Assembly (NCBI GenBank): GCA_017517865.1
Contig: JAFWYB010000016.1
Location: 1-48,012, forward strand
DNA from: Clostridia bacterium
GTDB taxonomy: Bacteria > Bacillota > Clostridia > Oscillospirales > Acutalibacteraceae
Direction: 5' to 3'
Length of the DNA stretch: 48,012 bases
Shown one piece after another: positions 10,915 to 33,783 of this stretch. The notes under the pieces are model-generated. The model did not search any database and had not been told where the DNA came from. It worked only from the letters and a program-made list of their open reading frames with translations. A program made the position numbers and the translations under genes. The stretch's first letter is position 1, and the number at the start of each line of letters is the position of its first letter.

Positions 10915-10931
10915 ATTTTTCAGATTTTCTT

Positions 10932-12652: not shown

Positions 12653-13720
12653 TTGCCTGTATACTATGACTCTAAACGCAAAAATTGGTATGTAGTTTAT
12701 CGCATCAAAGATACCACGGGCAAAGAGAAACAATCAACAAAAAGAGGTTTTCCAAAAAAGAGAGACGCTACAGCGTGGGAAAACGAATTCAACCTTAAAC
12801 GGGATACAAATATGGATATGAGCTTTAAAAGCTTGTGTGAAATATATCTTGATTATGCTGCTTCCCGTAACAAACCCACTACATACATTACAAAAGAAAA
12901 CATTATCAACAATAAAATTCTGCCGTATTTCAAGAACAAAAAAGTCAGTGAAATCACACTTAACGATGTTGGGGCGTGGCAGAATGAAATGATAAAAAGC
13001 GGTATGTATGCTCCGTCTTATCTTCGCCAAATGCACTCACAGCTCAGTGCTATTTTCAATTATGCTATCAAGCATTATAAGCTTAAAAAAAATCCGGCAA
13101 AAGAGGCCGGAACGATGGGAAGCAAAAAGGCAAAGAAAAAAATGGTTATATGGACTCCCGAAGAATACAAAAAATTCTCTTTTGCAATTATGGATAATAT
13201 CATTTCCTTCTATGCTTTTGAGATGCTTTTTTGGATCGGTATTCGTTTGGGAGAACTTCTTGCTCTTACGCCAGCGGATTTTGACTTTAAAAACAACACC
13301 GTTACTATTGACAAGAATTTACAGCATATCAAAGGTCAGGATATTATTCTCCCGCCCAAAACAGAAAAAAGCGAGAGAACAATCAGTCTTCCCCAGTTTT
13401 TAAGTGAAGAAATAAAAGAGTATATTGATTCGCTTTATAAAACTGAAGATTCGGAACGTATATTCAATATCAGCAAGAGCACACTTCACCGTGAAATGAC
13501 AAGAGGCAGCAAAGCATCAGGTGTAAAGCGCATACCGATTCATAATTTGCGTCACAGTCATATATCGTTACTTATACATATGGGGTATACCGCTGTTGAT
13601 ATCGGCGACAGAGTGGGTCACGAAAGTCCATATATTACGTTTCATTACGGTCATATTTTTCAGGCAGTAAAAAGAGAAATGGCAAACGACCTTGATAACT
13701 TAAGAAATCAGGAGGTATAA
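12653..13720 (+). CDS. int: tyrosine recombinase (integrase) of island 1
   Basis: A 355-residue integrase starting at TTG 12653 behind AAAGGAG. It has an N-terminal AP2-like arm-binding domain (about 1-55, with R-G-F-x-K-K-R-D-A-x-A-W-E), a SAM-like core-binding domain (about 60-155) and a catalytic domain with Arg in R-L-G-E-L-L-A-L (about 198), H-N-L-R-H-S-H (about 300-306), G-H-E-S and the Tyr of H-Y-G-H-I near 338. All catalytic residues are present, so it should be active. Its likely target is the guaA 3' end. It resembles the second integrase over its whole length. Confidence 0.93.
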   Translation: MPVYYDSKRKNWYVVYRIKDTTGKEKQSTKRGFPKKRDATAWENEFNLKRDTNMDMSFKSLCEIYLDYAASRNKPTTYITKENIINNKILPYFKNKKVSEITLNDVGAWQNEMIKSGMYAPSYLRQMHSQLSAIFNYAIKHYKLKKNPAKEAGTMGSKKAKKKMVIWTPEEYKKFSFAIMDNIISFYAFEMLFWIGIRLGELLALTPADFDFKNNTVTIDKNLQHIKGQDIILPPKTEKSERTISLPQFLSEEIKEYIDSLYKTEDSERIFNISKSTLHREMTRGSKASGVKRIPIHNLRHSHISLLIHMGYTAVDIGDRVGHESPYITFHYGHIFQAVKREMANDLDNLRNQEV

Positions 13721-13722: not shown

Positions 13723-14037
13723 ATGAGCGAAAGAGCACTTGACAAACAAGGGAGATGGCGTTGCAAAAATGTAAATTTCAGAATGTCATCCGAAGAAGCA
13801 GAATTACTTGATACTGCTGTTAAGCTGTCGGGACTGACAAAACAGGAATATCTTGTCAACAGGGTTTTGAATAGAGAAATAATCGTAAAATCCACCCCCA
13901 AAATTTACAAAGCTCTCAAAACAGAAATGGACAACATCCTTTCTGAGCTTCGCAGAATGGAGTCTTGTTCAGAAGCGAATCCGGATTTTCTTGCCATTAT
14001 TGAGTTTGTCGCCAGAACAGTAGAAGGAATGAAATAG
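13723..14037 (+). CDS. ribbon-helix-helix mobilization accessory protein
   Basis: A 104-residue protein beginning two bases after the integrase stop, with its AGGAGG inside the integrase gene. F-R-M-S-S-E-E-A-E-L-L-D-T (about 19-31) and S-G-L-T-K-Q-E-Y are typical of the MobC/plasmid mobilization relaxosome group, which bind near oriT to help the relaxase. The second half is helical. A close relative follows the second integrase at 35892. Confidence 0.8.
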   Translation: MSERALDKQGRWRCKNVNFRMSSEEAELLDTAVKLSGLTKQEYLVNRVLNREIIVKSTPKIYKALKTEMDNILSELRRMESCSEANPDFLAIIEFVARTVEGMK

Positions 14038-15510: not shown

Positions 15511-15889
15511 CGTTTTGAGCTAATTTTATAGGTATACCCAAAACTCAATTTCAGCCTTTTTTCTACCGTGGTAAACAACTGCTTTTTTATTCAAATACGC
15601 TCCTTCCACAAGAACTGCAGAACATATGTTCGTAAAAAATATGTAAGCTCAGACAACAAAAAAGTAAAAAAACTCTTCATACAGCAAAAAAATTTTGATT
15701 CATAAAACTTAAATTCGTCCCTTTCATACAAGTGATAATTTTTTATTTCTACCTAAAATATGTGCAGATTGATCTGAAAAAACGACAAAAAGCTCCCCAT
15801 ACACCAAAAATTTGACGTATAGGGAGCTTGAATCGTTGAGTATATTCAGTTGTTTTTATGATGTTTTTCGGTATTGACAGTCAGTAAAA
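15511..15889. other. gene-free spacer between mobilization genes and the surface operon
   Basis: AT-rich, no credible gene. It contains a 13-bp hairpin with one mismatch (15790-15802 with 15817-15829) followed on the minus strand by a T run, probably a second terminator for the surface operon. A weaker related sequence lies near 15660-15700. Confidence 0.5.
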
Positions 15890-15939: not shown

Positions 15940-18900
15940 TTAGATTATAAATGAGAAAATGAGAGATAAAATCTTCTTGATGAAGTCAAATATATTTGTG
16001 AAGATAATTTCAAAATCCACATGGTCTTCAGTTACTGGCTCATCAGGTTCAACTGTTTCGTTTGTTTCAGGTGTTGTTGCACCCTGCTCTGTTTCGTCTG
16101 TATCGGGTTCGACATTGAGTCCTGCAGACTGGTCAATAAGCATTACATATTCAATGTAATCTGCGTTTGTTGCAAGCTCTGCAACTGTTTTGGTCTGGTT
16201 AACATCATTGAGTTTAAGACCGGCACCGCTGAGCAAGTCAACATCAGCTTCATCAATCACGCCATCGTGGTTACAGTCGGCAGCAGTCCAGATTGCCTCA
16301 CCTACATCTTCTTCGTCAAGCAAACCTTTGGCGATAAGATTAACAAGAAATGCATCTTCGCCGTCGTACCATCCGTCACCGTTGACATCGCCGAATAGAA
16401 TAGTTTTATAAACATCCACAGTATTTCCATTGTACTGAACTCCGACAACTGAACCGCTGCCAAACCTCAAAGCCGAAGCAATAGCATAAAATTCTATGTC
16501 TTCGCTGACTGTTTCAAAATAACCATCAAGACTTTCGAGACCGGCTTTAAGCCCGTAGACATAGCCGTTGTTTTCAACTGCACCCGATTGTGGCACAACA
16601 TAAATCGGATCAATAAGTACAGCGGTGTTCTCAATTTTAAGTTCAACATCTTGCCAAGCCTCGTTGTATGTATCCTGTTGGGAATAAGCAAATGAAATAT
16701 CTGACACACAAATATCTATATTTGATGCAACGGCAAATTCAAGAACCAAAAGCTCTCCGTCTTTTGTAAGGTTAGCAGTGTTATTCCACACAATTTTAAA
16801 GCTACCGGATGCCCTGGAAATATTGTTATCCATTAATCCATCAGTTAGTATTTCGCCTCTACTGACTGAAATGGGAGTAAGTATGCTATCGTCATATTCA
16901 ACAGTAAGTCCAAATCCCATAATTCCGTTATTATACTTTATATAAACCGGAATTCTAACAGTACCACCTGCACTTGTTATTGCAAGGTCAGTTTCAAGTC
17001 TTGTTGTTTTGGGCAGCAGCTTATTGATAGAAACCACTGTACCGATATCATCGATATTCTCGGGAATAATGCAAGCAACTGTTACATCTGTTTCGCCCGA
17101 AGCAAACTCTGAAGCCTCAAAATATATGTTTAACACTACTTCATCCTGAACAATTTTTGTACCTGACCACTTCAGAGAATACTTTTTACCGGAATGAGTT
17201 AGTTCAACATTTCCATCAGGCAAACCGCTGCAAATAACCGTATTGGGCAACATAACATCTCTATCACACACAAGTTCAAATTTAAACTCTGTCACCCCAA
17301 GCATATTTTTAAGCTTGAGCGGAAGAATTATTCTATTTGATTCATCTGCAAAAGCATCCGCAAAAGCAATATACGGCACAGTTCCAACGCTTGAAATAAT
17401 CTGAATTTCAAACGGAGAAGTATTAAAGTAAACCGTGTTCCATTCTTCATCAAAACAGTCTGCTTCAATCGCCTTGATTTCCACTTTACTCAGCTGACTG
17501 GACACATCCTTAATAGCCTCAAACTCAACTGTGAAAAGCGTTCCGTCAGCAGTTATGTTTTTGGAAGCATAGAACACCACTTTGAGTGTTCCGCTTTCAA
17601 CAACACCGCCAATGCTGTCGTTGAGATTACCTGATGAGAGTATCTCTCCTGCTGAAACACTTACCGGAGCCAAAACAGCATCATCATAGCTTATTTCAAT
17701 GGCAAAACCCATAAAGCCTGTATTTTGCTCCACAATAAAAGGAATCGCCACGGTTTCTCCTGCTTGAACAGCAGCATGAGATGCTGTTATGGTCGGTTTA
17801 CCGTCGGCCTGCTTTTCATTTACCGTAATCGTGAAATCTGCGGTAACAGTAATTCCGTTTTCTGTATACGATACAGTAACAATCGCTGTTCCGGCCGCTT
17901 CCATATTACAGCTTATTGTGTAGCCGCTTGTAATAATCTTCGTACTTGAATCATTATAACTTGCCGTTAATTTCATTCCCGTCGTGTCAAAATCATCACC
18001 GATCGTATAGGTCGTTTTGTTCGGAGGGGCTGTAATTTCAATTGCTGTAATATCTTTTTCTTTTACAGTAACAAAAAATGTTGCGTATTTATCCCCGTAA
18101 TAAGCCTTGATGAGTTTTTTGCCAGGACTTGAAAATTGCTCAACAGAAAAATCAACAAATGATGTGGGAATTTTAACCTTTATCCCATTCTCATTCTCAG
18201 CCATAATTTCCAAGCCCTCTGTGTCCAAATATTCTCCAACAAAATATTCATTTTTGGTAATGGGATTGCTAATTTCGAGTTTGGTAACTGCAAAATCTAA
18301 AACTTCAATTTCAAAGGAACAACTGATTCCGTTAAACGAAACCGTAACTTCTTTAATTCCGGTTGTATTCATATCAGGCTGCGAAACTGTAAATCCGTCA
18401 TCAATCAGTATGCTTTCTCCATCTTCTGTGTAAACCAACAACGATAATCCGAATAAATCAAGTTTTTCAAATAAATAATAATTTGTTTTAATCGGCAATT
18501 CATTTACAGATAAAGTAAAGCTCTTAAACTTCGCATACAAGGTATGGCTTTGAGTTTGAGTCATTATCGTTGATTCGTTTATCTTTTCTCCATCGTTCTG
18601 ACCTGTATACCAACCTACAAACAGCATTTTATCTTTGTATGCTTGTGGCAGTTCGCTGTAAGTCTGACCATACTCAATATCTTTTTTAGAAAAAGAACAC
18701 TCTCCGTCATCAGAGTCGAAATTCACTGTAACAACTAACACATCCCATGATGCATAGAATGTCTGCGATTGAGTTATTTTAACAAGCGAGTCCTGTGTTA
18801 TATGATTACCTTGAGAATCAAACCAGCCAAGAAAATTATATCCAGTTCTTTTAGCAACAGGGAGTTTACCATAACAAGTATCAAAAACAACTGTTTTTTC

Positions 18901-20982
18901 AGTTATGTCGCACTCACCTTCGCCGGGATCAAACATAACCGTATATTCATTAGCTGACCATAATGCATAGAGATAATGATCACCGGAAACGGAAACTATT
19001 GATTCCTCCGTTATAAGTTCATTGTAAGACTGCGTTTTATACCAACCAAGAAATGTATAGCCGATACGTGTCGGAACAGGCAACTGTCCGTAGCAATCAT
19101 CAAATTCTATATTTTTATCTGATATATTGCACTCGCCTTCACCGGGATCAAAGCTTACAGTATATACATTCGGAGACCAAACCGCATAAAGCACTTGATC
19201 ATCAGTGATTTCAACAGTGGTTTGCTCGGTAATGATCGTTCCATTATTAACGGATGTATGCCATCCCTCAAAGGTATAACCATTTCTTGCCGGTATTGGC
19301 AAGGAGCCATAAAGACCAGAATAAATTACTGTTATGTCGTCAAAAACCTCATCCGATCCGTTTGAATCAAAGCTGACAGTAAACTTCGGACGCTCCCACT
19401 GAGCTAAAAGCGTCATGTCCTGAGAAAGATCATCTAACTCTCCCATTTTTTTACCGTCGCTTCCAGCAGTATACCAACCGCAAAAAACATAATTTTCTCT
19501 GTAAGGAACAGGGAGTCTTTCTGCCGTTTGGTAGTTCCATTGAGCATATAATTCCGTATTCTCGTCGTTTGCAAAGTTCGAATAAGAACAAAAGGCTGTT
19601 CCGCTCATATCCGGTGAAGAATTCCATTTTACAAATTCGGCATCATAAGCAAATGTGCTTTCAGCAACTTTGCCGCCATTTGCATCAAGGACAATTTCAA
19701 TCTGTTTTTGAGGAATCGTGCCAGTCAACGGATAAGTAACTCCGCTATATTTTGTTTGAGAACATAGCATCTGTTCTGATGCATCAGAATAATATGACAG
19801 TTGGTAAGTTTTTGCATCAAATGTTTTTGCTGTAGAATTTAACGCTGAATTACCACTGTCAATTGTAATCGAATCCCAATCATCCTTTGAGCCTGAATAA
19901 TAAACAGAGTTTAAAGAATCACAGTTTCCAAAAGCATTTGAACCGATACGTATAACATTGTTTGAAAAAGCAACAGTTTTCAATGCTTTACAACCATAAA
20001 ACATATATTCGCCAATTATAGAATATGTTTGTGGAAGAACTACAACTTCAAGTGAATCACACGAAATAAACGTATAACCGCCAAGATAAGTAACGCCTTC
20101 TTCTATTACAACTTTTTCAAGCGAAAAACAATTGGAAAAAATAGCCATTGAATTATTCAACTTGGCCAAAGTACCGGGCAAAGTTATCTCAGTAAGGGAT
20201 GTGCAATATTCAAACGCATAATCCTTAATTGAAATCAAGCCCTCAGGAAGAGTGATCGAAAGTAAATTTTGTGCAGATTTAAAAGCTCCATTTGAAATTA
20301 CGGTTACACTATTAGGAACTTTATAGCTTGTACGGGTATTTTTAAACGGATACTGAATAAGTTTAGTGATATTTTTATCAAATAAAACAGAATCCTTTGA
20401 AGCATAAAAACTATTTTCAGGGTCAACAATAATCTCAGCAAGTTTTTTACTATCGAAAGAACTTTCATCCAACGATGATACGCTTTTAGGCACAAAAAAA
20501 GAGGAAATATTAGTGCTTTCAAAGGCTTTCATACCAATAGTTTCTACTGTATCCGGAATTGTAATTTCAATTAAGCTTGTACCGCTGAACGCACAAGCAT
20601 CTATCAGGGTAAGGCTTTCAGGTAGATCCACTTGGGTTAAAGCGGTACATTCATAGCAAAAATATCTGCCTAAGGTGGTTACACGGTCATCAATATTAAC
20701 TTCATTGATCTCTGAGCGGTACGAATACCACGGAACAGAGCTTATTGAGGACCAATAGTCCATTTCTCCCGTACCGGAAATTGTTAGTACACCGGCACAT
20801 AACGTCCAAGTAAGGTCTTCACCGCAGGTGCCCGAATAAGTTGGGTTAGAGGTTGAATCCTGCTCTTCTTCAGCTGCAACAGCCGAAAACATTAGAGAAT
20901 TATTGCAGTTCAGCGGAACAGCCGAAAATATCACGGCAATCGAAAGCGCAAATGTTAAATATTTTAAAAGCTTATTTTTCAT
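15940..20982 (-). CDS. giant surface protein with LRR, InlB-type, Ig-like, cohesin and dockerin domains
   Basis: A 1680-residue exported protein. Domain order: signal peptide (1-37); BspA-type leucine-rich repeats (about 50-385); five or more Listeria/Bacteroides InlB-type repeats with G-Y-T-F-x-G-W and L-Y-A-x-W signatures (about 410-820); three Big_3-like Ig domains (about 820-1060); three cohesin-like domains (about 1062-1200, 1203-1325, 1326-1450), the first and third with N-D-S-I or N-N-I motifs; a dockerin-like pair of Ca2+ loops D-V-N-G-D-G and D-C-N-H-D-G (about 1527-1590); an acidic Thr/Glu/Pro linker; and a hydrophobic C-terminal tail. GGGAGGT at 20991-20997 sets the start. Carrying both cohesin and dockerin suggests a scaffold or adhesin that can chain with partners on the cell surface. 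No enzyme domain is visible. Confidence 0.88.
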   Translation of the reverse strand: MKNKLLKYLTFALSIAVIFSAVPLNCNNSLMFSAVAAEEEQDSTSNPTYSGTCGEDLTWTLCAGVLTISGTGEMDYWSSISSVPWYSYRSEINEVNIDDRVTTLGRYFCYECTALTQVDLPESLTLIDACAFSGTSLIEITIPDTVETIGMKAFESTNISSFFVPKSVSSLDESSFDSKKLAEIIVDPENSFYASKDSVLFDKNITKLIQYPFKNTRTSYKVPNSVTVISNGAFKSAQNLLSITLPEGLISIKDYAFEYCTSLTEITLPGTLAKLNNSMAIFSNCFSLEKVVIEEGVTYLGGYTFISCDSLEVVVLPQTYSIIGEYMFYGCKALKTVAFSNNVIRIGSNAFGNCDSLNSVYYSGSKDDWDSITIDSGNSALNSTAKTFDAKTYQLSYYSDASEQMLCSQTKYSGVTYPLTGTIPQKQIEIVLDANGGKVAESTFAYDAEFVKWNSSPDMSGTAFCSYSNFANDENTELYAQWNYQTAERLPVPYRENYVFCGWYTAGSDGKKMGELDDLSQDMTLLAQWERPKFTVSFDSNGSDEVFDDITVIYSGLYGSLPIPARNGYTFEGWHTSVNNGTIITEQTTVEITDDQVLYAVWSPNVYTVSFDPGEGECNISDKNIEFDDCYGQLPVPTRIGYTFLGWYKTQSYNELITEESIVSVSGDHYLYALWSANEYTVMFDPGEGECDITEKTVVFDTCYGKLPVAKRTGYNFLGWFDSQGNHITQDSLVKITQSQTFYASWDVLVVTVNFDSDDGECSFSKKDIEYGQTYSELPQAYKDKMLFVGWYTGQNDGEKINESTIMTQTQSHTLYAKFKSFTLSVNELPIKTNYYLFEKLDLFGLSLLVYTEDGESILIDDGFTVSQPDMNTTGIKEVTVSFNGISCSFEIEVLDFAVTKLEISNPITKNEYFVGEYLDTEGLEIMAENENGIKVKIPTSFVDFSVEQFSSPGKKLIKAYYGDKYATFFVTVKEKDITAIEITAPPNKTTYTIGDDFDTTGMKLTASYNDSSTKIITSGYTISCNMEAAGTAIVTVSYTENGITVTADFTITVNEKQADGKPTITASHAAVQAGETVAIPFIVEQNTGFMGFAIEISYDDAVLAPVSVSAGEILSSGNLNDSIGGVVESGTLKVVFYASKNITADGTLFTVEFEAIKDVSSQLSKVEIKAIEADCFDEEWNTVYFNTSPFEIQIISSVGTVPYIAFADAFADESNRIILPLKLKNMLGVTEFKFELVCDRDVMLPNTVICSGLPDGNVELTHSGKKYSLKWSGTKIVQDEVVLNIYFEASEFASGETDVTVACIIPENIDDIGTVVSINKLLPKTTRLETDLAITSAGGTVRIPVYIKYNNGIMGFGLTVEYDDSILTPISVSRGEILTDGLMDNNISRASGSFKIVWNNTANLTKDGELLVLEFAVASNIDICVSDISFAYSQQDTYNEAWQDVELKIENTAVLIDPIYVVPQSGAVENNGYVYGLKAGLESLDGYFETVSEDIEFYAIASALRFGSGSVVGVQYNGNTVDVYKTILFGDVNGDGWYDGEDAFLVNLIAKGLLDEEDVGEAIWTAADCNHDGVIDEADVDLLSGAGLKLNDVNQTKTVAELATNADYIEYVMLIDQSAGLNVEPDTDETEQGATTPETNETVEPDEPVTEDHVDFEIIFTNIFDFIKKILSLIFSFII

Positions 20983-21135
20983 TAAACATTACCTCCCGGT
21001 ATTAAAAATGCAACTGCACCGACACAGCTTGAAAGGTTTCTCTTTCAGACTATGTCGGTACAGGGGACAAAGAAACTCTTTGTCCCACATACCATATCCG
21101 ATAAGCCGAAAAGGGCTCTTCGGAACAATTTAAAT
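20983..21135 (-). other. structured intergenic leader between the two giant genes
   Basis: In the leftward RNA three hairpins follow each other: 21106-21123, a 9-bp stem at 21064-21086, and a 14-bp stem (21050-21063 with 21014-21027) topped by a second GAAAG/CTTTC stem. The last is followed by a T5 run near 21004-21008, just before the ribosome binding site. It could be an attenuator, a processing site or a riboswitch-like element setting the ratio of the two proteins. No known RNA family was recognised. Confidence 0.5.
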
Positions 21136-24100
21136 TCAGATAGTTTCTTTGCCTACAAGATATCTTGAAACCATCGATGCATCACGGTTGTTTATGTATC
21201 CGTCACCGTTTACATCAATTGCAACCATCTGTGCAAAATCTGCAGTTTCTTTTTCAACAAGATATCTTGTGATCATCGCAGCATCACGGTTGTTAACAAG
21301 TCCGTCACCTGTCATATCTCCGGTTACAACTACATTAACACTGTCGATAACTGTATCGCCGTCAGAGAAGCTGATTACCGTACCGGTACCTACAGCAGCA
21401 TCCTCATCAAGAACATTACCGTTGATATCTGTAAACACAAGGTCAGTGTTTGCGAACTGCTCTTTTACGCTTGCAACTGTACTAACAGTGTGCTTAACTC
21501 CTCTGAGCAGCTTGTTTTCAGCATCCAGAGTAAGTGTTGAGCCTATGTTCAGACAAAGCGATTCACTCGGATTTGCCGTGACAGTAATTACACATTCCGC
21601 GTATTCACCGGTAGCTTCGGCTACAACGCTGACTATTGCAATGCCTTCACCTATTGCTGTAACAACACCGTCATCAGTAACTGTAATGACAGAGGAATTA
21701 TCTGTATACCATTCAAGGTTCTTGTTAAGGCTATCTTCGGGAGTTACTGTTGCATTCAGCTGAACGGATGTGCCTGCCATCATATAATACTTACTTCTGT
21801 CAAGAGAAACAGTGCAATATTCATCCTGAGGCACATACACAGCTGTAACAATAAGGTTTTCGGTTGTAAATTCATAAGCATCAGTATCCCAGCCTATGAA
21901 GACATAACCATCTCTTCCTTCGGGTTCGGGAACTTCGGCATATTCGCCGTATGAAACCGTCTGTTCAGAAAGAACAGTTGAATCATAATCAACAAAAATC
22001 ACGTCAAAGGTATGTGCTGAATATTTTGGATAGAGATTAAGATCGCTTGTAACAGCTTGAGTTTCATAATCCCAGTATGTTGCAAATTCAGGGTCGGTAA
22101 AGAAGCCGAGAAAATCATAACCCTCATAATCGTAATCTCTCTTATCAATTTCAAGCATTTCGTTTGCAACTATTATCTGGGTCTGACTTCCAGATCCGAA
22201 AACCGAGTAATCGGGAATAATATTTACTATGAACATTTCGGGAATATGGTACTGATAAATTGCAGCTGTTTTTGTTTCTCTGGTTTCTTCAGCAGAGGGT
22301 TCACCAACAGTCCATTCAGACCATTTGAAAAGATTGAATATTTTCATTCTGTAACGGTACATCATATAGTCCGGAATGACATCAACATTTACAAGAGTCT
22401 GACTAAACCATTTTTCTCCGTTGAGAGCATAGTAAGGTGTCGTTGTTCCGCTGATGAAACCGCCAACAGAAAGCTTTGATTCACTGATATGCTCTTCCCA
22501 TTCGCCTTCAACACCTTCAACCTCTTCGGCTGAGTAAACTGCGGTTCCGTTTTCATCAAGATATTTAAAACGAACATACCTGTATCTTGACTCAGTTACC
22601 GGATCGGGCTGCCGTGTTTCGACCTCATATGCCAGTCCGTCAAATATGGGTTCTGTAAGGCTCCAGTCACTCCATTCACCAAATTCCGAGCCGTTGTTTG
22701 TCCAGCCTTCGTTTTCAAGCTGAAGAATATAGCTATAATCGGAGGTTTCAATTACATCCTTGCAACTGTATCCCTCGTCGGTGGTTATGGTGTAGGTTTC
22801 AGTATCGTTAAGAACATACTGCGGAATATCTGCATACTCCATCCAGTCACTTGTCATAACGCCTGCATTGACTGCGTAGTAGTTGTTCATAACTTCGCTG
22901 TCATTCTTCTCAAATGCGCAGGCATAGTATCTGAGCTCAACACTTCTGTCAATGGTAATCGGTCCTGCATATTCCTCGCCGCCCTCTTTGGGATCCGAAC
23001 CGTCAAGCGTGTAATAGATTATTGCATTTTCGGTTTCCGTTGTGAGTTCAACTGTCTGAGTCTCATAATACGTGCCATTTTCGAGGCTTGAAACAGGGTC
23101 AGCAACGGTTTCCTCAAAGACAAAGGTCGGATAGAAATTTACTGCTCCGCTTGTGTTTTCAAGACCGTTATCATAGCTGGTCCAATCAATGAAAACATAG
23201 TTATCCTTATCGGTTATATCAACCGCCGAAGGTGTTTCGCCATAGGGAACAATTTGTGTACTGACAAGGTTATTCTCATAATCATAAAAATTAACTTCAT
23301 AGGTCTTCTTTGCAAATTCAGCCGTAATAACCATATTGTCCTTAACAACTGTTTCGCCAAGAACAACATCACCCCACCGAACAAGGTCGTATCCGTCAAC
23401 CTCATCTGCTTCGGGCGGAACAAGGTAATCGCCGTATTCAAATGTTTTTGTTACAACCGTTTTATTGCTCCAGTCAACAAAAACAACTGTGTAGCTATTT
23501 TTGATATAACGAGCGGTAAGGTTAATATCGGAATCTATACAACTCAGATCGGAATCCCAGCCTACAAAGGTATAGCCCTCTTTTTCAGGGTTTGCAGGAG
23601 TTACTGCGGCCTCACCCTCAGTAACGGTCTGAGTTTCAATAACTGAACCATCGTCATTATAGAAAGTTACTGTATATTCAGGTTTGGGAGCTGAAATAGT
23701 GCCAATGGTGATGGCTTCTGTTGTTCCCTCAATACCTAAGGACATTGTGAAATCACCGGTTTTTATCGAAGGCTCTTCTCTGAGCTTAAAAGTAAAACTG
23801 TAAGATCCGTCCTCAGCGATAACCGTCTGGCCCACATATTCGCCAGTCCAGTCGGAAGCCTCATCAATCTTATAAATAAAGAGAGTCGCCTCTTCACCGG
23901 CAAGTGAGGCATCAAGAGTACCTGAAACCGTTCTGAATACGCCGTCTTTATTTTCTTCGGCAGCAAAACCGGTGTTCTTATATCTGTAAAGAGGTCTCGT
24001 ATTCACCTCACGATTTGATGTTGCAGATACAGGAGTGTCGCTCCAGTTGCTCCAGCCTCCCCACTTCCAGAAATAATAGGTGTAATAAGTATCTGTATAA

Positions 24101-27100
24101 TCATAGTGGGTGATGTGATAATCCTCTACTTGTCTGGTTTGCTGATTGTACCAATGAGTACAACCGCAACTGCATTTTGTGCTGCTGGTACTTCCGTATT
24201 TTGTTGCACCGCCAGCATTTGAAGTACCTGATATAGCATAGGGCTTATCCATCCATGCTGTTTCATGAAGGGTATACTTGTCATACTTAACAGGAGAAAC
24301 TGTGTACTGAGTTGGATGTCTGTAATGGTTATACTTATACTGAGTTTTATAAAAGGTTTCAGTCCATGTGCTCACTGTTCTTTTATGGGCATCCGTATTT
24401 ATTGCACCGACATAAGAGGTTGAACTGCCACGTGACGATGTGCTTGTTGTGTCGTAATGTGTCCAACCGGAAAGAGTTTTTGAGCTTGCGGTTGTAAACT
24501 GTTTATCGCGGTATTTATATTGAACCTTTGTTTCAATTTCATTATAAAGGTTGTCTGCCGGTTTGTTTTCTGACCAATCCGACCACTGGTCATGCAGGTC
24601 GATGGTGCAGCTCTTTGAAGAAGAAATCGGAACTGCATCCTTGAAGCTGTTTACAACATAAACCTCTGCAATAGAGGCGGGAGAATCGGCAGGAGTATAA
24701 ATACTCTTGGGATAATCACTGGTGCCACTTGCGAGACTGAATGCCTCCGATTCGGTTGTGGAAATGAGCTTGCCTTCTGCCGTTTTGATTGCAACAACAG
24801 CTCTACCGTTTGTAACAGCCTCCGTACACGAAACATTGAATGTAACATTATATCCGCCGGAAATAAGGTCGGCCTTAACGTTGGTAACCATTACGGGCAG
24901 TTCATCGTTACCCCACTTATAGGAAGCGGTAACAGTTAGATCGCGCTTTACCTTTGTCCATTCATCAGTATCCCAACCGACAAATACCCAACCGGTGGGA
25001 ATATTCTTGTCCTCGGGCTCAACGGCACTGCTACCATAATTAATACGCTGAGTACTGCCAAGCTGATTTCCGTCACGATCAATGAACTTAACATTGTATG
25101 TATTAATTTTATAGCCTGCGTGAATTGTAAGGTTGGTTGTAACCTTTTCATAGTTGCCTTCCCAGCCGGTAAATGTATAACCCTCTCTTGTGGGCGGATC
25201 AGGAGCTATAGCATTGGAGCCGTAGGCAACGCTTCTGGTTTCTGTTCTGCCATCCCAGTCAACAAAACTGACTGTAAGCGGTGCATGAGCAGTAAAGCTT
25301 GAAGAAGCAACGGATTCCACGCTGTATTTTTCGTTTACTGCGCAAACAGTAATATGATATTTACCTGCATTGCTGACGGTGAAGGAAACACTTCTGCCGG
25401 TAATACCTTCGGATGTATCAACTACCGTTCCGTTGCTATCCTTAAGATAGGCTGTGTATGTATCTGCATTAGCAACTGCGTTCCAGCTTGCTCCAACTAT
25501 TGCTCCTGTGGGAACATTCGCTTCACTTGTAAGCTTCACTGTGGGCGCATCGGGCTTTTTAACGGTTTCAAGTGCCCTTATCCAGGTTGCATATTTCAGG
25601 CATATCCAACCTGTTTTTCCGTTATAAACCGTCTTGCCCCAGCCGTTTGAGGAGATTTCCGTAACTTCAACCTCTGTGCTTCTGGGGATTGCGCTTGTGG
25701 CCAAAGAATAGCCCGAACCCGGTCCGGTGCGTATATTGAGATTATCCGCTGATGTTGTACGATATACACCGGTATTGTAGGTTGGAGCAGAAACAGTATT
25801 ATTAACCGGAGTTTTATCTGTTGAGGGCTTATTGTCAGGCTCAACAGGTTTAACAAGTTCGTCGGTCTTTTTCAATATAACTTTTAAAGCATCGATTATT
25901 TCTTCCGCTTGTGAAGTTTTATTTGGATCCACAACGCAGAAGCTTGCCTTTTCAACCACGATGTAATCCTTACTTCCGTCAAGCTTAACAGAAATTTCCA
26001 AGCGATAATTACCTTCACCAAGCGACTTGAAAGTCATTGCGTTGTCGATTATTCCGTTTTTACTCAGTGTACATATCTTTGAATTGTTAGTAAGATTACC
26101 GGTACATGCGGTTGAAGTAACAATACCAAACAAACTCGTTTTGTAGATTGTTGCTTTTACATCAACAATATTTTTTGTGTAAGATGTCAGCGTTCCTCTG
26201 ACAGAGAAAGTTTTTCCCTTTGTATGAGTTCTTCCGTCAAGTGCTGCAGCAACATTGTTATTATCGTGATAATTCGCCTCAAAAACAACGGGCTTAAGAG
26301 TCTGCTGTGGGTTTTTGCTCAGGTGTCCGGAATAAATCCAACCCTGAACACCCTTGTACTCGGTATAATACCACTTACTGCCGTGACCGTTATCGCCGAT
26401 GAAGCCGGTTACAACAAACTGCTGACCCTTCGAAACAGCAGCTTCAACCGCATTTTCAGCATCAGCAAACGGCTCTTTTTTCATATAGAAACCAGATTTA
26501 TTAGCGGTATATTGAGCATACTCGGATTCTTTTTGGGAGAGGTAGGGATCTCGATTATCAGTATATTCATCTTTAGAAAGATATCTCCAATTTGAATATA
26601 GCGGTTTTTTTATTTTTACACCTTCAGTAGGAACAAAAAATGCATCGTAAATATGCACTGGAGAATTTGCGCTTTTCAAATCCATACTTGTGAAAATTTC
26701 CATATGAATATGATTTCCTGTGCCGATACCTTTACAACCTTCTTGATAAAAAACTGTACCTTGAGGAATAACTGCACCTTCCCCCAAAGCAATAAGATTA
26801 TCAATATACCAATCGTGTCCAATCGTAATGTACATATGCTGTAATCGACCATCTGCATAATGTACAGGATCTTTACTTTTTAAAAAAATAGAATTTGAAG
26901 CTGTATCCCAATCAATGTCAGTGATAACACAAGTGAAGGGTGCATAAAAGCCATCTATTTCGCCATCTTTTCCAGTTAAATCGTTAGCATACCTGTAACG
27001 AGAAAATGCGCCCTCGCTATTATATTTTTTCCAAGTATGATTACCTGTACATTCACCTTGATTAATGTACATATATTCCATGGGGAAGATTGCATTTTCG

Positions 27101-27288
27101 TATCCATCTGCTGCTACGGATGTAAACAAAACAGTACCATTTAACTCTTCATCTTCCTTTGCCGCTTCTGCTTCAATTGCGAACAGCGAAGAAAAGTCTA
27201 TGCCTGTAAGGCTTTCGATGGGTGCGGAGCCAAAGAGCATTACCGCAACAAGAAGGGATGCTACAACTCGTTTGAATATATTTTTCAT
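21136..27288 (-). CDS. giant surface protein with M23-like, SH3, FN3, InlB-type, Big_2 and dockerin domains
   Basis: A 2050-residue exported protein. Domain order: signal peptide (1-42); a lysostaphin-like M23 fold (about 60-230) with N-H-I-H near 194 but no clear H-x-x-x-D partner; an SH3-like domain (about 270-330); a classic bacterial SH3 domain with L-N-I-R-T-G-P-G (about 510-575); an FN3-like domain (about 576-670); InlB-type repeats (about 670-790, 1200-1390, 1700-1820); Trp-rich W-S-D-W/W-S-N-W repeats (about 900, 1080, 1535, 1680); a chitobiase C-terminal-like domain (about 1390-1480); Big_2 (about 1825-1905); and a type-I dockerin with D-M-T-G-D-G-L-V-N-N-R-D and D-V-N-G-D-G-Y-I-N-N-R-D (about 1988-2050). 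SH3 and M23 imply cell-wall contact; the dockerin should bind one of the cohesins next door. Its ATG overlaps the upstream stop by four bases (ATGA). Confidence 0.9.
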   Translation of the reverse strand: MKNIFKRVVASLLVAVMLFGSAPIESLTGIDFSSLFAIEAEAAKEDEELNGTVLFTSVAADGYENAIFPMEYMYINQGECTGNHTWKKYNSEGAFSRYRYANDLTGKDGEIDGFYAPFTCVITDIDWDTASNSIFLKSKDPVHYADGRLQHMYITIGHDWYIDNLIALGEGAVIPQGTVFYQEGCKGIGTGNHIHMEIFTSMDLKSANSPVHIYDAFFVPTEGVKIKKPLYSNWRYLSKDEYTDNRDPYLSQKESEYAQYTANKSGFYMKKEPFADAENAVEAAVSKGQQFVVTGFIGDNGHGSKWYYTEYKGVQGWIYSGHLSKNPQQTLKPVVFEANYHDNNNVAAALDGRTHTKGKTFSVRGTLTSYTKNIVDVKATIYKTSLFGIVTSTACTGNLTNNSKICTLSKNGIIDNAMTFKSLGEGNYRLEISVKLDGSKDYIVVEKASFCVVDPNKTSQAEEIIDALKVILKKTDELVKPVEPDNKPSTDKTPVNNTVSAPTYNTGVYRTTSADNLNIRTGPGSGYSLATSAIPRSTEVEVTEISSNGWGKTVYNGKTGWICLKYATWIRALETVKKPDAPTVKLTSEANVPTGAIVGASWNAVANADTYTAYLKDSNGTVVDTSEGITGRSVSFTVSNAGKYHITVCAVNEKYSVESVASSSFTAHAPLTVSFVDWDGRTETRSVAYGSNAIAPDPPTREGYTFTGWEGNYEKVTTNLTIHAGYKINTYNVKFIDRDGNQLGSTQRINYGSSAVEPEDKNIPTGWVFVGWDTDEWTKVKRDLTVTASYKWGNDELPVMVTNVKADLISGGYNVTFNVSCTEAVTNGRAVVAIKTAEGKLISTTESEAFSLASGTSDYPKSIYTPADSPASIAEVYVVNSFKDAVPISSSKSCTIDLHDQWSDWSENKPADNLYNEIETKVQYKYRDKQFTTASSKTLSGWTHYDTTSTSSRGSSTSYVGAINTDAHKRTVSTWTETFYKTQYKYNHYRHPTQYTVSPVKYDKYTLHETAWMDKPYAISGTSNAGGATKYGSTSSTKCSCGCTHWYNQQTRQVEDYHITHYDYTDTYYTYYFWKWGGWSNWSDTPVSATSNREVNTRPLYRYKNTGFAAEENKDGVFRTVSGTLDASLAGEEATLFIYKIDEASDWTGEYVGQTVIAEDGSYSFTFKLREEPSIKTGDFTMSLGIEGTTEAITIGTISAPKPEYTVTFYNDDGSVIETQTVTEGEAAVTPANPEKEGYTFVGWDSDLSCIDSDINLTARYIKNSYTVVFVDWSNKTVVTKTFEYGDYLVPPEADEVDGYDLVRWGDVVLGETVVKDNMVITAEFAKKTYEVNFYDYENNLVSTQIVPYGETPSAVDITDKDNYVFIDWTSYDNGLENTSGAVNFYPTFVFEETVADPVSSLENGTYYETQTVELTTETENAIIYYTLDGSDPKEGGEEYAGPITIDRSVELRYYACAFEKNDSEVMNNYYAVNAGVMTSDWMEYADIPQYVLNDTETYTITTDEGYSCKDVIETSDYSYILQLENEGWTNNGSEFGEWSDWSLTEPIFDGLAYEVETRQPDPVTESRYRYVRFKYLDENGTAVYSAEEVEGVEGEWEEHISESKLSVGGFISGTTTPYYALNGEKWFSQTLVNVDVIPDYMMYRYRMKIFNLFKWSEWTVGEPSAEETRETKTAAIYQYHIPEMFIVNIIPDYSVFGSGSQTQIIVANEMLEIDKRDYDYEGYDFLGFFTDPEFATYWDYETQAVTSDLNLYPKYSAHTFDVIFVDYDSTVLSEQTVSYGEYAEVPEPEGRDGYVFIGWDTDAYEFTTENLIVTAVYVPQDEYCTVSLDRSKYYMMAGTSVQLNATVTPEDSLNKNLEWYTDNSSVITVTDDGVVTAIGEGIAIVSVVAEATGEYAECVITVTANPSESLCLNIGSTLTLDAENKLLRGVKHTVSTVASVKEQFANTDLVFTDINGNVLDEDAAVGTGTVISFSDGDTVIDSVNVVVTGDMTGDGLVNNRDAAMITRYLVEKETADFAQMVAIDVNGDGYINNRDASMVSRYLVGKETI

Positions 27289-28424
27289 TTTTTTATTGCC
27301 TCCTCGTTATTTTTGAGTTTGCGCTTTTTATGTAAAACGACAATTACCGCAACAGCGATTATTACAATCAGGCCTGCGCCCGCTGCTACAATAATTATCA
27401 CCGTACTGTTTTCAGGGCCTTTTAACGGAACTTTTTTGCCTTGTGCAATCTGTTCTGCATTTTCGCCGTCAAGCTCTGCAATTGCGCCGATTGCCTCATC
27501 TGCGCTGAGCGTATCGGATATGCCGTCGATGTCAGCTGCCTGATTTTTCAAAGCATTTTCAACCGACTGAACAAAATTCTGCTTTTTATCTTCAGGGATT
27601 TTTTCAATGGATTCCGCATTGACTTGTGTCAGTGCATCCGAAACAGCGGACTTTATTATATCGGGGTCAACCGCCTCAAGCGAAGTATTTACAAAATCCT
27701 TGGCAACTGCGTCTTTATATCCGCTGACAAGTGAATCAACATCCGCAAAGTGATTTTCCTTACCTGTCATAAGATTCAATGTATTGTTTGCTGACTCAAG
27801 CAGTTTATCCGCAAGGTCGGGGTCAATTTCGTTCACCAAGCTGAAATTCAGTTCTTTAAGTGCCGCATCAACCGAAACTATAATGTCACTGTAATCAGGC
27901 TCTTTTATCTCACCTACATATGCGTTTGATATTTCTTCGCCGCCAAACGATATATCAATATCTTTACAGTCAAAAACAACATCATTGTAGCTTTCGTCAA
28001 ACGTATCATTCTGACTGTAGGATAGTTTCAGATTTGTGTTTTTCGCATCGGTATCATCAACATTAAAGCTGAGCACAAGCAGTGTACCGTCACTCGTGAC
28101 AGCGGAATCGTTTGTCCACACAATGTCAAACGTGCCTTCATCTGTTACACCTATGCTGTCATTTAGCATTCCGCCTTGCGTTACCGTGCCCCTTGTAACC
28201 ACAGGAAGCGACAGGACTTCTTTATCGTAGCTGACGGTAAGCTTGAAGCCCATCAATCCGGGATTGCCTTTGACATTTACAGGCACAAAGAAAATTGAAT
28301 TAGGCTTGGTACTTATCTTATCCGCATAAACAAGCGCTTTATCCGCCGCAACAGCGGATGATGAAAACAAGAACACAGCAATAAGCACAAGCACTGCAGT
28401 CTGAAAAATTCTTTTCGCTTTCAA
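27285..28424 (-). CDS. membrane-anchored cohesin protein
   Basis: A 379-residue protein: signal peptide (1-27), one cohesin-like domain (about 28-165, with G-L-M-G-F-K-L-T-V-S-Y-D and M-L-N-D-S-I-G), a helical Asp/Glu/Ala-rich stalk (about 170-330), and a C-terminal transmembrane helix (about 342-364) followed by a Lys/Arg-rich cytoplasmic tail. This is the expected shape of an anchoring scaffoldin: the cohesin is displayed outside and the helix holds it in the membrane. Its stop overlaps the start of the dockerin-bearing giant gene, so receptor and ligand are translationally coupled. The start follows the upstream gene by 12 bases. Confidence 0.87.
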   Translation of the reverse strand: MKAKRIFQTAVLVLIAVFLFSSSAVAADKALVYADKISTKPNSIFFVPVNVKGNPGLMGFKLTVSYDKEVLSLPVVTRGTVTQGGMLNDSIGVTDEGTFDIVWTNDSAVTSDGTLLVLSFNVDDTDAKNTNLKLSYSQNDTFDESYNDVVFDCKDIDISFGGEEISNAYVGEIKEPDYSDIIVSVDAALKELNFSLVNEIDPDLADKLLESANNTLNLMTGKENHFADVDSLVSGYKDAVAKDFVNTSLEAVDPDIIKSAVSDALTQVNAESIEKIPEDKKQNFVQSVENALKNQAADIDGISDTLSADEAIGAIAELDGENAEQIAQGKKVPLKGPENSTVIIIVAAGAGLIVIIAVAVIVVLHKKRKLKNNEEAIKK

Positions 28425-28436
28425 ACAATCAGCTCC

Positions 28437-29132
28437 TTATTCAAAAATTGAAACAATCCACGCAAACGGCAAAGCAAAAATGCCAAGAATAATATTCAGC
28501 GGCACCGGCAGACCGTTCGCCCATGCACGTATTCTTTCTGAAAGCTTTTGAGATACATCGGGGGTATCCTGCGGCTGTGTGGGAGCTTCTGTTGTTTCTT
28601 CCTCAGGCTCTTCTGTTGGTTCCTCCGGCTGAACTGTTGTAAGTTCAGTTTCAGGTTCAACATAAGAAACACTGACACTTATGGGTTCACAGTTGAAGTT
28701 GACATCCGCCCAGCCCTCTTTGAAAGTATCCGGCTGCGAATATGAAAGCGATATGTCATATTTTCCGCTTACGTTATCTGCAACATCAAACACCATATTA
28801 AATAAAATGCAATCATCAGTAAAATTTTCTGTTCCGGTAAACACAGCTTTGAAAGTATTGTCTGATGAGGTAGATATACTGTCGTTAAATATGCCCTTAA
28901 GCATTTCTCCCTTTGACACAGAAACCGGTGTGAATATGTCTTTATCATAGCTGACAATCACCGCAAATCCCATAAAGCCGCTGTTGCCTTCAATTTTTAT
29001 TGGTATCGTAATTCTGTCACCCTTTTCACAAACCACCGGTTCTGAATAAACCCTGTCAGAAACAGCTGACACATTTGTTGCTACCGTAAAAAGCATAACA
29101 AATGCTAAAATTGCCGAGATAAATCTTTTCAT
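28437..29132 (-). CDS. small membrane-associated cohesin protein
   Basis: A 231-residue protein, first gene of the leftward operon. It has a signal peptide (about 1-23), one cohesin-like domain (about 30-155, with G-F-M-G-F-A-V-I-V-S-Y-D and I-F-N-D-S-I), a Thr/Glu/Pro-rich linker (about 160-195) and a C-terminal hydrophobic segment (about 208-229) with aromatic residues that could sit in or on the membrane. AGGAGG six bases upstream supports the start. With the next gene it offers two anchored cohesin receptors for the dockerins of the two giant proteins; pairing specificity is inferred, not shown. Confidence 0.85.
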   Translation of the reverse strand: MKRFISAILAFVMLFTVATNVSAVSDRVYSEPVVCEKGDRITIPIKIEGNSGFMGFAVIVSYDKDIFTPVSVSKGEMLKGIFNDSISTSSDNTFKAVFTGTENFTDDCILFNMVFDVADNVSGKYDISLSYSQPDTFKEGWADVNFNCEPISVSVSYVEPETELTTVQPEEPTEEPEEETTEAPTQPQDTPDVSQKLSERIRAWANGLPVPLNIILGIFALPFAWIVSIFE

Positions 29133-29183: not shown

Positions 29184-29213
29184 ATAATATATCTATATAG
29201 TGCAATTTGTCAA
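29184..29213 (-). promoter_or_regulatory. promoter of the cohesin/dockerin operon
   Basis: TTGACA (29208-29213) and TATTAT (29184-29189), 18-bp spacer, minus strand, about 52 bases before the first start codon. Confidence 0.65.
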
Positions 29214-29311: not shown

Positions 29312-29638
29312 ATGGCTAACGAAACGATAGGGCATATTATTAAAGCCAAACGCAAGGAACTGAATCTCACTCAAGCCCAATTGGCAGAACTGATAAATTC
29401 CGACGAATACTACATCAGCGCTATTGAGACCGGGCGCAGAAAACCAGGCAGGAAATTTCTCGTTGCACTTTCCAATGCACTTAATATTCCGGTTGACGTG
29501 CTTCTGGGAATTGAGTCAAATATCGTTTTGCATGAAACCGTTTCTGAACTCGAAAAGAAACTCCAAAAACTTTCCAACGAAGATAAGGAATTTGTGCTTG
29601 GAATTATCGAACAACTGATTGACAGACTTTCAATCTAA
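29312..29638 (+). CDS. XRE family regulator divergent from the surface operon
   Basis: A 108-residue protein with a full Cro/cI-type helix-turn-helix (about 5-62: L-T-Q-A-Q-L-A-E-L-I, then Y-I-S-A-I-E-T-G-R-R-K-P), and a C-terminal amphipathic helix of 35 residues that probably dimerises. It has no metabolite-binding domain. It lies head to head with the cohesin operon and ends in its own terminator. TATACTATA motifs at its promoter and downstream are its likely operators. AAAGG is the ribosome binding site. Confidence 0.85.
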   Translation: MANETIGHIIKAKRKELNLTQAQLAELINSDEYYISAIETGRRKPGRKFLVALSNALNIPVDVLLGIESNIVLHETVSELEKKLQKLSNEDKEFVLGIIEQLIDRLSI

Positions 29639-29891: not shown

Positions 29892-30611
29892 ATGAAATTT
29901 GTCGTATGCGATGATGATGAAATATTCCTTAACGGTTTTAAAAGTGAACTGCTTAAAGCCGATAATTCTCTCGATGTTGCTTGTTTTGATAACAGCAAGC
30001 AAACACTTGAGTATTTAAAAACAGAGCATAATAATACAGATGCTGCGTTTATTGATATCCGCCTTTCCGATTCAAGCGGTATTGACCTTGCTCAACAGCT
30101 TTCAAATAATTATCCCGATATCAAACTGATTTTTATTACAGGATTCGGCAATGAGTATTTTGAAGAAATATTCCTGACGGTGCGACCTTTCGCAATCCTT
30201 CAAAAACCGATAAAAAAAGACTACCTTTTAAAGCATATAAATGGAATAAAAACTGCTGAAGACATAAATCAGCAAAAATTGATAATTAAAGTAAACCGTT
30301 CAGAGCTTTCTTTAGCTTTCGATAAAATTATTTATATTGAATCCGACAAAAGAAAAGCTCACATATATACTAAAGATGATGTGTTTACGGTTTATGAAAA
30401 GCTTGACGATATTCAACGCAGACTTGATGAAAGTTTCATAAGGTGTCAGAAAAGCTTTATTGTCAACCTTTGTCATATTTCGTCACTTGAGTCAAACAAC
30501 TTCGTTATGACAGATAATAAAAAAATAAGCATCAGCCCTTCAAAAAGAACCGATGTAAAAACGAAATATATGGAATTTAATTTTAATCTGCTTAATAAAA
30601 CAGGGGTGTAA
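29892..30611 (+). CDS. LytTR-type response regulator
   Basis: A 239-residue AgrA/ComE-like regulator. The receiver domain (1-118) has D-D-D at 8-10, the phospho-acceptor Asp in F-I-D-I-R (about 55), T-G in F-I-T-G and the conserved Lys of Q-K-P. The LytTR DNA-binding domain (about 130-235) has I-Y-I-E-S and F-I-R-C-Q-K-S-F-I-V-N. It is expected to be phosphorylated by the kinase encoded five bases downstream. Targets probably include its own promoter (direct repeats at 29772-29803); control of the surface operon is suggested only by proximity. Confidence 0.9.
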   Translation: MKFVVCDDDEIFLNGFKSELLKADNSLDVACFDNSKQTLEYLKTEHNNTDAAFIDIRLSDSSGIDLAQQLSNNYPDIKLIFITGFGNEYFEEIFLTVRPFAILQKPIKKDYLLKHINGIKTAEDINQQKLIIKVNRSELSLAFDKIIYIESDKRKAHIYTKDDVFTVYEKLDDIQRRLDESFIRCQKSFIVNLCHISSLESNNFVMTDNKKISISPSKRTDVKTKYMEFNFNLLNKTGV

Positions 30612-30616: not shown

Positions 30617-31918
30617 ATGGGTTTACCTGCATATTTAATGGTTATACTTTTATCCGGAATACAGGCGATAATTGCTGCTATTTTCTTCGGTACTACGCTC
30701 AAACGCAAACTTTCACTTCCAAAAAGCTGTATAATTTACACGATAGTTATAGTTGCCGCTGTACTTATTATGTTTGAAAGGGTTGTTCAGCCGTATCGCG
30801 GACTTGTTACTTTTGGATTGCCGCTAATAATGGTATTTACTTTATTTGGCGATTCAATCAAAAACAAAATTATAGCATATATTATATGGATGTTTTTCTC
30901 CTGTGTTACCGACCCGGTCAGCTATTATTTGGTACACTGGCTCAACATATCAGATCCGTTTGCAAGCGACTTGGTAATGAATTGCGTTTTCTCTGTTATG
31001 TATGCTTTTTCTCTTGCTGTTGCGCATCAGTACATAAAATCATTCAAAGGTTTGCCGGACAAAAAGCTATTTATTGCATTCTTATTTATTCCCATTATAC
31101 AAATTGTAACATATATTTATTTCTTCTACCTTCAGTTTGATGTCGGTATTATTACATTTGACGGTGTTGCAAACGAATACACAGGTGACAGTAAATTCCC
31201 GATATTCTTTATTATTCTTTCACTTGCTACTTTAGCTGCAGATTATGTATTTATGCATATAGCAATAAAATCCGTCAACGGTATTCAGGAAAAGCAGCGC
31301 CTTGAACTGCTCGAAAAAGAAAGTGAACTGAACTACGAGTATTATGCGGAATTGCAGGAAGATGCTGCCGAAATGCGCAAATACAGGCATGATGTAAACA
31401 ATATCATTCAGACAATACGTTACATGATGGATATGCCTTCCGAAGAAAGCAAAGAAGAAATATTAAGAATTACTAATCAGCTTGAAAAAGAAATTAATGA
31501 AGTCGGACTTAAAAAGTACACTAACAACAACCTGGTAAATTGCATACTTGCAAATAACGAAAAAAGATTTAACAACAAGAATATTTCCTGTGATTTCAAT
31601 GTTGTCTTTCCGGAAACAACAAATATTTCTGAGCTTGATATCTGCAGACTTCTTACTAATATTTTTGATAACGCTTATAACGCCTTAACTTCATCAGAAG
31701 CAGCAGACAAATCCGTGCTTTTAAATATCGATTGCAAGGATGGTTACATTTACCTGAGAGAAGAAAATAGCACCGCAGAAAACACAGATGAACAAAGAAA
31801 AAAAGATTCACATTACGGTCTTGAAATCATTAAATCAATTTCCGAAAAATATAACGGTATTTTCGAAAGCAAAGTTAAAGATAATATGTTCTGTATCAGT
31901 GTTTCTTTGAAGTATTAA
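30617..31918 (+). CDS. AgrC/ComD-type sensor histidine kinase (GHKL)
   Basis: A 433-residue membrane kinase. Six or seven helices span about 1-215, without a large extracellular domain, as in peptide-sensing kinases. A coiled linker leads to the phospho-acceptor His in Y-R-H-D-V-N-N (about 257), then an N-box I-F-D-N-A-Y-N-A-L (about 352) and a G-L-x-I-I-x-S-I glycine box (about 405) of the HATPase_c_5 type. Such kinases usually sense a secreted peptide, but no AgrB-like protease or convincing pheromone precursor is encoded nearby. Confidence 0.88.
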   Translation: MGLPAYLMVILLSGIQAIIAAIFFGTTLKRKLSLPKSCIIYTIVIVAAVLIMFERVVQPYRGLVTFGLPLIMVFTLFGDSIKNKIIAYIIWMFFSCVTDPVSYYLVHWLNISDPFASDLVMNCVFSVMYAFSLAVAHQYIKSFKGLPDKKLFIAFLFIPIIQIVTYIYFFYLQFDVGIITFDGVANEYTGDSKFPIFFIILSLATLAADYVFMHIAIKSVNGIQEKQRLELLEKESELNYEYYAELQEDAAEMRKYRHDVNNIIQTIRYMMDMPSEESKEEILRITNQLEKEINEVGLKKYTNNNLVNCILANNEKRFNNKNISCDFNVVFPETTNISELDICRLLTNIFDNAYNALTSSEAADKSVLLNIDCKDGYIYLREENSTAENTDEQRKKDSHYGLEIIKSISEKYNGIFESKVKDNMFCISVSLKY

Positions 31919-33604: not shown

Positions 33605-33783
33605 CGCTCATTAACATATACCGATACAAAATATCGCATTGCATATGAGTGGTTAATAAAGTCGATACCGGATATAGACATTTATTTTTTTCGTAGTATA
33701 ATATAGAAGTAGTTGTCAAATGGTTTAACAGCACAGGTTTTTATTCTTTCATAAAAGTCAAGGCTTTAATCGGATAATAGCCG

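Follow-up and report, generated by a model that had tools for sequence, protein, structure and literature searches.

What function can cohesins and dockerins serve in an operon that encodes no enzyme for the digestion of plant polysaccharides? This question is raised by a 48,012-nucleotide stretch of a Clostridia bacterium genome (contig JAFWYB010000016.1; hereafter the window), in which four co-directional minus-strand genes in the order D-C-B-A are found at 29132-28437 (D), 28424-27285 (C), 27288-21136 (B) and 20982-15940 (A). A preliminary description had noted the four genes, two dockerins and an ATGA overlap joining C to B, all of which were confirmed by the open reading frame (ORF) map and by Pfam, and had taken the operon for an enzyme-free adhesion system. 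We think it rather probable that the operon instead builds a dockerin/cohesin surface complex displaying the giant protein B, with an exchangeable phage-lysin-type domain at its N-terminus. This proposal is based on the domain content of the proteins, the exchange of lysin domains across the B family, the recurring association of the genes, and signs of mobility. A recurring cohesin/dockerin operon with exchangeable lysin-type domains appears to be the most economical account of these observations.

Protein B (2050 residues; 21136..27288, minus strand, as are all operon features below) consists of a lysin-like N-terminus, SH3 modules, InlB-type repeats, a conserved core (residues 792-1212; 23653..24915) and a C-terminal dockerin with two similar F-hand halves (residues 1986-2050; 21139..21333). 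The domains recognized by Pfam are SH3_3, Flg_new, a chitobiase-C-type Ig domain, Big_2 and dockerin; the SH3_3 domain at residues 515-563 (25600..25746; E 9.7e-9 with the whole protein) is a possible wall-binding module. The N-terminal domain (residues 57-222; 26623..27120) is of the phage tail-lysin/M23-like type. It matches the PHROG endolysin family phrog_9066 (8.7e-12), and a tblastn search with the B N-terminus matched 57 phage records, with 26-32% identity to residues ~60-226 in the 20 of these 57 that were listed, phi29-like tail lysins among them. Given this relationship to phage endolysins and tail lysins, B is not enzyme-free by family. A complete M23 zinc site is formed by H, D and HxH; in the alignment, the metal-site Asp, HD and HxH are kept in the window domain, and Arg takes the place of the first zinc-ligand His, leaving the site incomplete. 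Since this ligand is replaced, catalysis may be weakened or lost in the window copy, which could then act mainly as a wall-binding tip. A sequence search of the Protein Data Bank (PDB) with this N-terminus found nothing, and a search of viral contigs gave no relative. Among 398 genomes of the bacterial family, it was matched in a goat caecum metagenome-assembled genome (MAG) of another genus (G230) and, weakly, in two cases more.

Relatives of B reveal how variable this N-terminus is. The first eight were found through the cohesin protein C. A probe made from an alignment of the B core only (residues 792-1212), with dockerin and N-terminus left out and partly trained on these eight, identified 17 loci in 84,980 species genomes, including all eight earlier relatives; together with one viral contig from IMG/VR and the window itself, the total is 19 loci. 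Duplicates were dropped before counting (L080=L067, L083=L068, L090=L069, L096=L070, L088=L071, L095=L073, L085=L074, L086=L076), and the counts leave out seven matches obtained when a profile of the core was run against 295 genomes of the order, five of these matches being partial and outside the family. A recognizable peptidoglycan-hydrolase-type domain precedes the core in 12 of the 19 loci: ten by a Pfam score over the cut-off, partly with proteins scanned as slices, and two, the window and L067 from G230, by PHROG and identity, the domain of L067 being 100% identical to that of the window.

The hydrolase classes are M23, CHAP, NlpC/P60-like, GH24 and tail lysozyme. According to Pfam, M23 domains occur in L068 (2.9e-15) and L093 (3.7e-20), a tail lysozyme (1.6e-29) together with M23 (4.3e-22) in L074, an endolysin-like/NlpC domain in L076 (1.5e-13), CHAP domains in L071, L087, L091 and L092 (4.9e-9 to 2.7e-6), and GH24 phage lysozymes in L084 (3.9e-32) and L097 (1.2e-38). 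Exchange is also seen between close relatives: L069 and L091 are 77% identical in the core versus 29% in the N-terminal part, and L071 and L074, from one genus, share 70% core identity, the former with CHAP and the latter with tail lysozyme plus M23. The view of the operon as enzyme-free thus does not hold, as the N-termini of the B family include peptidoglycan-hydrolase domains of several unrelated classes; wall binding, which had also been proposed, may still apply to the window copy, with its replaced zinc ligand.

Of the alternatives, an adhesion or wall-binding matrix survives best, in which the lysin-derived domain of the window would be dead and, together with the SH3 modules, would only grip peptidoglycan, sticking cells together or to surfaces. 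The missing ligand, in a domain that is unchanged in L067, agrees with such a role, as do the dominance of leucine-rich repeat (LRR), InlB-type and Ig modules and the L073 protein without visible lysin domain; but the relatives retain complete M23 motifs (L068, L074, L093) and complete GH24 motifs (L084, L097), and a pure adhesin would not need the exchange of unrelated lytic folds, so that we regard this alternative as unlikely.

The gene set recurs as well. B carries a dockerin in 18 of the 19 loci, and cohesin genes are adjacent to or near B in 16; this association supports the earlier interpretation of the proteins as receptor and ligand parts of a surface assembly, and removes the concern that the genes might never be found together elsewhere. 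As the probe was partly trained on the first eight relatives, the ten loci first found with it were counted separately: nine have the dockerin, seven the cohesins and six a Pfam lysin domain. The gene orders encountered are D-C-B-A, C-B-A, A-B-C and B-A-C, and in a tree of the cohesins (leaving out L067, L077, L094, domains of up to 100 residues and matches with E above 1e-25) the domains cluster by gene position, with 6 label changes against 18.6 when shuffled. Protein C is matched in 39 of the 398 family genomes, near full length in seven besides its own, and has no match in the six congeners listed; the cohesin family is present in 193 of 300 genomes of this bacterial family, to which the genome with L070 (G021) also belongs. 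A plasmid search with C gave no match. In the source genome itself (assembly 95.6% complete), searches located four sites with cohesins and two with dockerins, every one inside this operon and none elsewhere, and docking is therefore most likely to take place within the operon's own set of proteins. Genome G230 contains two such operons: in one (L068), B, C and D share 42-45% identity with their window counterparts, and the other (L067) is a near-identical copy. B-C and A-B pieces of the operon were also observed on two unverified 'Bacteriophage sp.' contigs from human faeces (L132, L133), which are too short to judge a phage origin.

Protein A (1680 residues; 15940..20982) combines LRRs, five InlB-type repeats, three Big_3 domains, cohesins, a dockerin and a hydrophobic C-terminus, with Pfam matches to LRR_5, Flg_new, Big_3, cohesin and dockerin. 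Its first cohesin (residues 1062-1196; 17395..17799) and its last (residues 1326-1458; 16609..17007) are firm assignments, and the divergent middle domain (residues 1202-1322; 17017..17379) is a probable one, part of its cohesin evidence being circular and part of low confidence; of the five cohesins originally counted, four thus stand firmly (first and last of A, C and D). The dockerin of A (residues 1527-1588; 16219..16404), found by Pfam and by the dockerin search of the genome, differs in sequence from that of B. The domains are consistent with the cohesin fold, and with two firm cohesins, one probable cohesin and its own dockerin, A has the makeup of a cellulosomal scaffold. As stated earlier for this locus, the Pfam scan detected neither a glycoside hydrolase (GH) catalytic domain nor a carbohydrate-binding module (CBM) in A-D, so the plant-polysaccharide enzymes that define a cellulosome are absent from the set. 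Proteins C (379 residues; 27285..28424; cohesin at 27942-28340) and D (231 residues; 28437..29132; cohesin at 28665-29060) each have a signal peptide and one cohesin and end in a hydrophobic segment, in C a transmembrane-like helix with basic tail and in D a conserved hydrophobic tail; judged by eye, these are predicted surface anchors. The D tail (28437-28547), approximately LSxxIRxW..L..P....I...P....ISxFE, was by eye found to be shared with L068, L073, L084 and L097, and with neither LPXTG nor a basic stop-transfer sequence appears to be an uncharacterised anchor. The D protein of L093 has a different C-terminal end, and a short hydrophobic tail ends A in some loci.

From these features we infer secretion and anchoring (both judged by eye), the binding partners, catalysis and the target as follows. 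B would be secreted, with its SH3 modules, a long Ig/InlB-type stalk, the C-terminal dockerin and a lysin-type tip. A would be the scaffold, whose cohesins probably take the B dockerin, and would in addition bring the LRR/InlB adhesive part and a second dockerin. The small proteins C and D, membrane-anchored with one cohesin each, would probably take the dockerin of A, or that of B directly. The docked stalk would then hold the lysin-type domain off the cell and most likely direct it at the peptidoglycan of adjacent cells.

A comparison of the window with L067, which share 17 kb as a mosaic of 95% identity, fits a two-tier scheme in which the cohesins of A would take B, and those of C and D would take A. 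Base differences are small in B 1-1700 (0.1%), A 1-900 (0.5%) and the cohesins and middle domain of A (0.3-2%); they amount to 7% in A 901-1061, 4.6% in the B dockerin (without amino-acid change), 6-10% in the C and D cohesins, 25% in the A dockerin and 38% in the A tail. As this is one comparison, and divergence is also seen elsewhere, at 11-13% in the remainder of C and D, at 27% in the stretch of B that precedes its dockerin, and in the response regulator, the pattern may instead be plain recombination or assembly chimerism. Moreover, a dockerin in A was found in the window, L067, L097 and L084 (two) and weakly in L071 and L074; many A proteins show none, and hence the two-tier scheme cannot be general.

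Several features suggest that the operon is mobile. A candidate attL site (10894..10915, plus strand) lies 55 bp after the stop codon of a guaA-like gene, and a candidate attR (33781..33802, plus strand) agrees with it in 21 of 22 bases; with up to 3 mismatches tolerated, the window has no other copies of the repeat (0.01 expected), and the 20-mer of the site has exactly two copies in the genome, versus 0 for the reversed control. Genes for a tyrosine integrase (12653..13720, plus) and a NikA-like mobilisation accessory protein (13723..14037, plus) lie inward of the left repeat, at distances of 1.7 kb and 2.8 kb. Integrase and flanking direct repeats, as in an integrative element, lead us to predict a 22.9-kb island on which the operon sits, with putative excision and transfer; the island proposed in the preliminary description is supported by these elements and by the near-identical copy in another genus. 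Of 20 congeners examined for the att 20-mer, 19 lack it and one has a single copy, ~60 bp after a guaA stop; no exact empty site could be demonstrated. The genome contains two guaA-like synthetase copies of 84% identity (window 9685-10839 and G000:C41:50908-51918), the candidate site adjoining the copy in the window. A single-insertion cassette common to the window and G230 was considered and dropped, as the shared 17 kb is a mosaic and a serine recombinase is nearby in G230. At 40461-45639, a Type II methyltransferase gene is followed by one for a 1380-residue restriction-methylation protein of type IIG (E values of 6.2e-128 and 0 with PADLOC); both lie on an apparent second mobile element, which has an integrase of its own (34814) and NikA-like, Mob_Pre and TnpV genes.

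Mobile surroundings are also seen at other loci. L097 is a prophage-like contig on which portal, capsid, tail and holin genes and a resolvase-type recombinase lie upstream of the operon; the holin gene comes just before it, and an XRE-like gene (by eye) and a serine integrase come after it. Near the operon in L067, L070 and L076 there are serine recombinases resembling those on the L097 contig (25-29% identity), and near that of L084 there is an invertase-type one. These findings bear on two further alternatives. B could be an own-wall enzyme, i.e. a tethered autolysin with which the producer opens or remodels its own wall for growth, division or export of giant proteins; its SH3 modules, and the seemingly membrane-anchored cohesins that would keep it near that wall, are in keeping with this, but the operon is accessory, protein C being unmatched in the congeners listed, one copy is on a prophage-like contig, and exchange of lytic class and mobility would be unusual for a housekeeping autolysin, which makes this quite improbable. 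Least probable, and in our opinion very much so, is a complex that helps the element or prophage to transfer or become established (by mating contact, local wall opening, superinfection exclusion or lysis). Integrases or recombinases are near the operon in the window, L067, L070, L076, L084 and L097, the holin lies just upstream of it in L097, and a conjugation system is described to use a multidomain wall hydrolase (in excerpts of PMC11323569); but the elements are of several types (tyrosine integrase, serine integrase, phage), and the selected island ORFs that were scanned showed no transfer apparatus.

The intergenic gaps measure 12 bases between D and C and 153 bases between B and A, and since no terminator-like site among those listed falls in either, it is plausible that the operon forms one transcription unit. 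A promoter-like site upstream of D (29184..29213, minus strand) matches the consensus at 11/12 positions, by consensus match only, and a terminator-like hairpin of 18 pairs with a T-rich tail after A (15790..15829, minus strand) is at the top of the site list; such sites are little commoner in the region than in shuffles (48 versus 42.5 for promoters, 19 versus 11.1 for terminators). Beyond D lie, all on the plus strand, a 108-residue ORF, by eye an XRE-type regulator without a library scan (29312..29638), a LytTR response regulator gene divergent from the operon (29892..30611) and a GHKL histidine kinase gene (30617..31918). LytTR systems often answer peptides. Pairs akin to this one (22-26% identity) adjoin the L081 and L093 loci. 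Upstream of the LytTR gene, at 29772-29803, a perfect 12-bp direct repeat (ATGTAATAACTT, 20 bp apart) is a candidate binding pair. Near the L082 operon, at 5535-7406, a Ser/Thr kinase that lacks the first part of the Pfam model, a 153-residue ORF and a zinc-ribbon protein are encoded, and neighbouring ORFs of similar size were noticed by eye in L072 (3441-5354), L075 (5465-7366), L089 and L091.

Exchanged lytic folds, mobility and LytTR control would be expected of competition, and any lytic activity may be aimed at competitors. The boldest form of the surface-complex proposal is that gut Clostridia have an antibacterial weapon that is mobile, polymorphic and dependent on contact, with cellulosome-type docking, interchangeable phage-lysin warheads and possible LytTR peptide-sensing, spread by integrative elements and prophages; this would be a genuine 'lyticome', and we put it forward as a tentative idea with less than an even chance. 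In polymorphic toxin systems the variable toxin domain is at the C-terminus, whereas here the variable domain is N-terminal.

A number of observations weigh against a displayed lysin. In the window, the B domain lacks the first zinc ligand and has no Pfam M23 match, and a structure prediction for residues 41-260, made from a 5-row alignment, reached a pLDDT of 30 and was not used. Seven of the 19 loci are without a firmly assigned N-terminal lysin domain (L069, L070, L073, L081, L082, L089 and L094, the last with its N-terminus unexamined). Pfam scans revealed no lysin domain in L073; the N-termini of L069, L070, L081 and L089 had no counterpart in phage tblastn searches, leaving these without assignment; and PDB sequence searches gave nothing for L082 and E values of 0.1 and worse for L089. 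For L070, a C39-like assignment via L097 is tentative, the C39 match of L097 itself being below the cut-off. With respect to docking, the L081 contig ends inside B, after a dockerin that resembles the A type; L089 has an atypical dockerin beyond a gap in the record and no cohesin genes on its 11.4-kb contig; and in L094 (Ruminococcus flavefaciens SAb67, 9968-13006) the B core is combined by eye with a C-terminal membrane anchor, without a dockerin and without cohesin genes beside B. Finally, no immunity gene was noticed in the ORF maps, in which no dedicated search was made.

If the surface-complex proposal is true, the operon could provide a surface tool directed against other bacteria, and would hint at ways in which gut Clostridia may combat neighbouring cells or feed on them. 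Cohesin/dockerin docking has been described mainly for the digestion of plant fibre, and the wall hydrolases reported from cellulosomes are isolated cases. An operon that is small, complete and mobile, with unrelated peptidoglycan hydrolases at the cargo position, would make the 'lyticome' directly testable; it would offer a simple assembly of two to three proteins, and the N-terminal exchange would provide a natural set of lysin domains on one chassis.

The GH25 lysozyme in ScaK of Ruminococcus champanellensis was reportedly described by Morais et al. 2016, and dockerin-containing wall hydrolases are said to have been found by Bensoussan et al. 2017. Among the literature matches listed for dockerins with wall lysis, phage or antagonism, mostly outside subscription papers, no title or opening of an abstract describes such an operon, and none is described in the excerpts of PMC4081043, PMC6118326, PMC4217186 and PMC5814915. 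As far as parts of PMC2930009 report, R. flavefaciens has many dockerin peptidases and LRR proteins. Its RflaF_05439 protein, with two NlpC/P60 domains and an X-dockerin, docks on the surface cohesin ScaE (PMC3573020, in part; a dockerin-borne NlpC/P60 protein also appears in excerpts of PMC5301203). Like B, it combines a dockerin with a module of wall-hydrolase type, and it binds a surface cohesin; unlike B, it is part of a large fibre-degrading cellulosome, and these excerpts describe neither a dedicated operon nor an exchanged lysin tip. The cellulosomal GH25 lysozyme of ScaK, as cited in passages of PMC6780208 and PMC6403190, likewise places a lysozyme in a cohesin/dockerin scaffold, but within a cellulosome and of a class absent among the B proteins found here. 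The phage tail lysins of phi29 type (B103 gene 13, WhyPhy tail lysin) and the EF24C tail lysin are similar to B residues ~60-226, from which the window protein differs in lacking the first zinc ligand and in being fused to a dockerin giant. Non-cellulosomal cohesin/dockerin proteins likewise have cohesins outside plant-fibre degradation; this operon differs from them as a set of scaffold, anchors and cargo with recurring genes. Closest in concept is the 'lyticome', an extracellular multi-enzyme complex for bacterial cell lysis proposed in a 2019 review and prompted by several reported dockerin-containing wall hydrolases (excerpts of PMC6403190); in those excerpts no locus is attached to the concept, for which the present operon would be a candidate.

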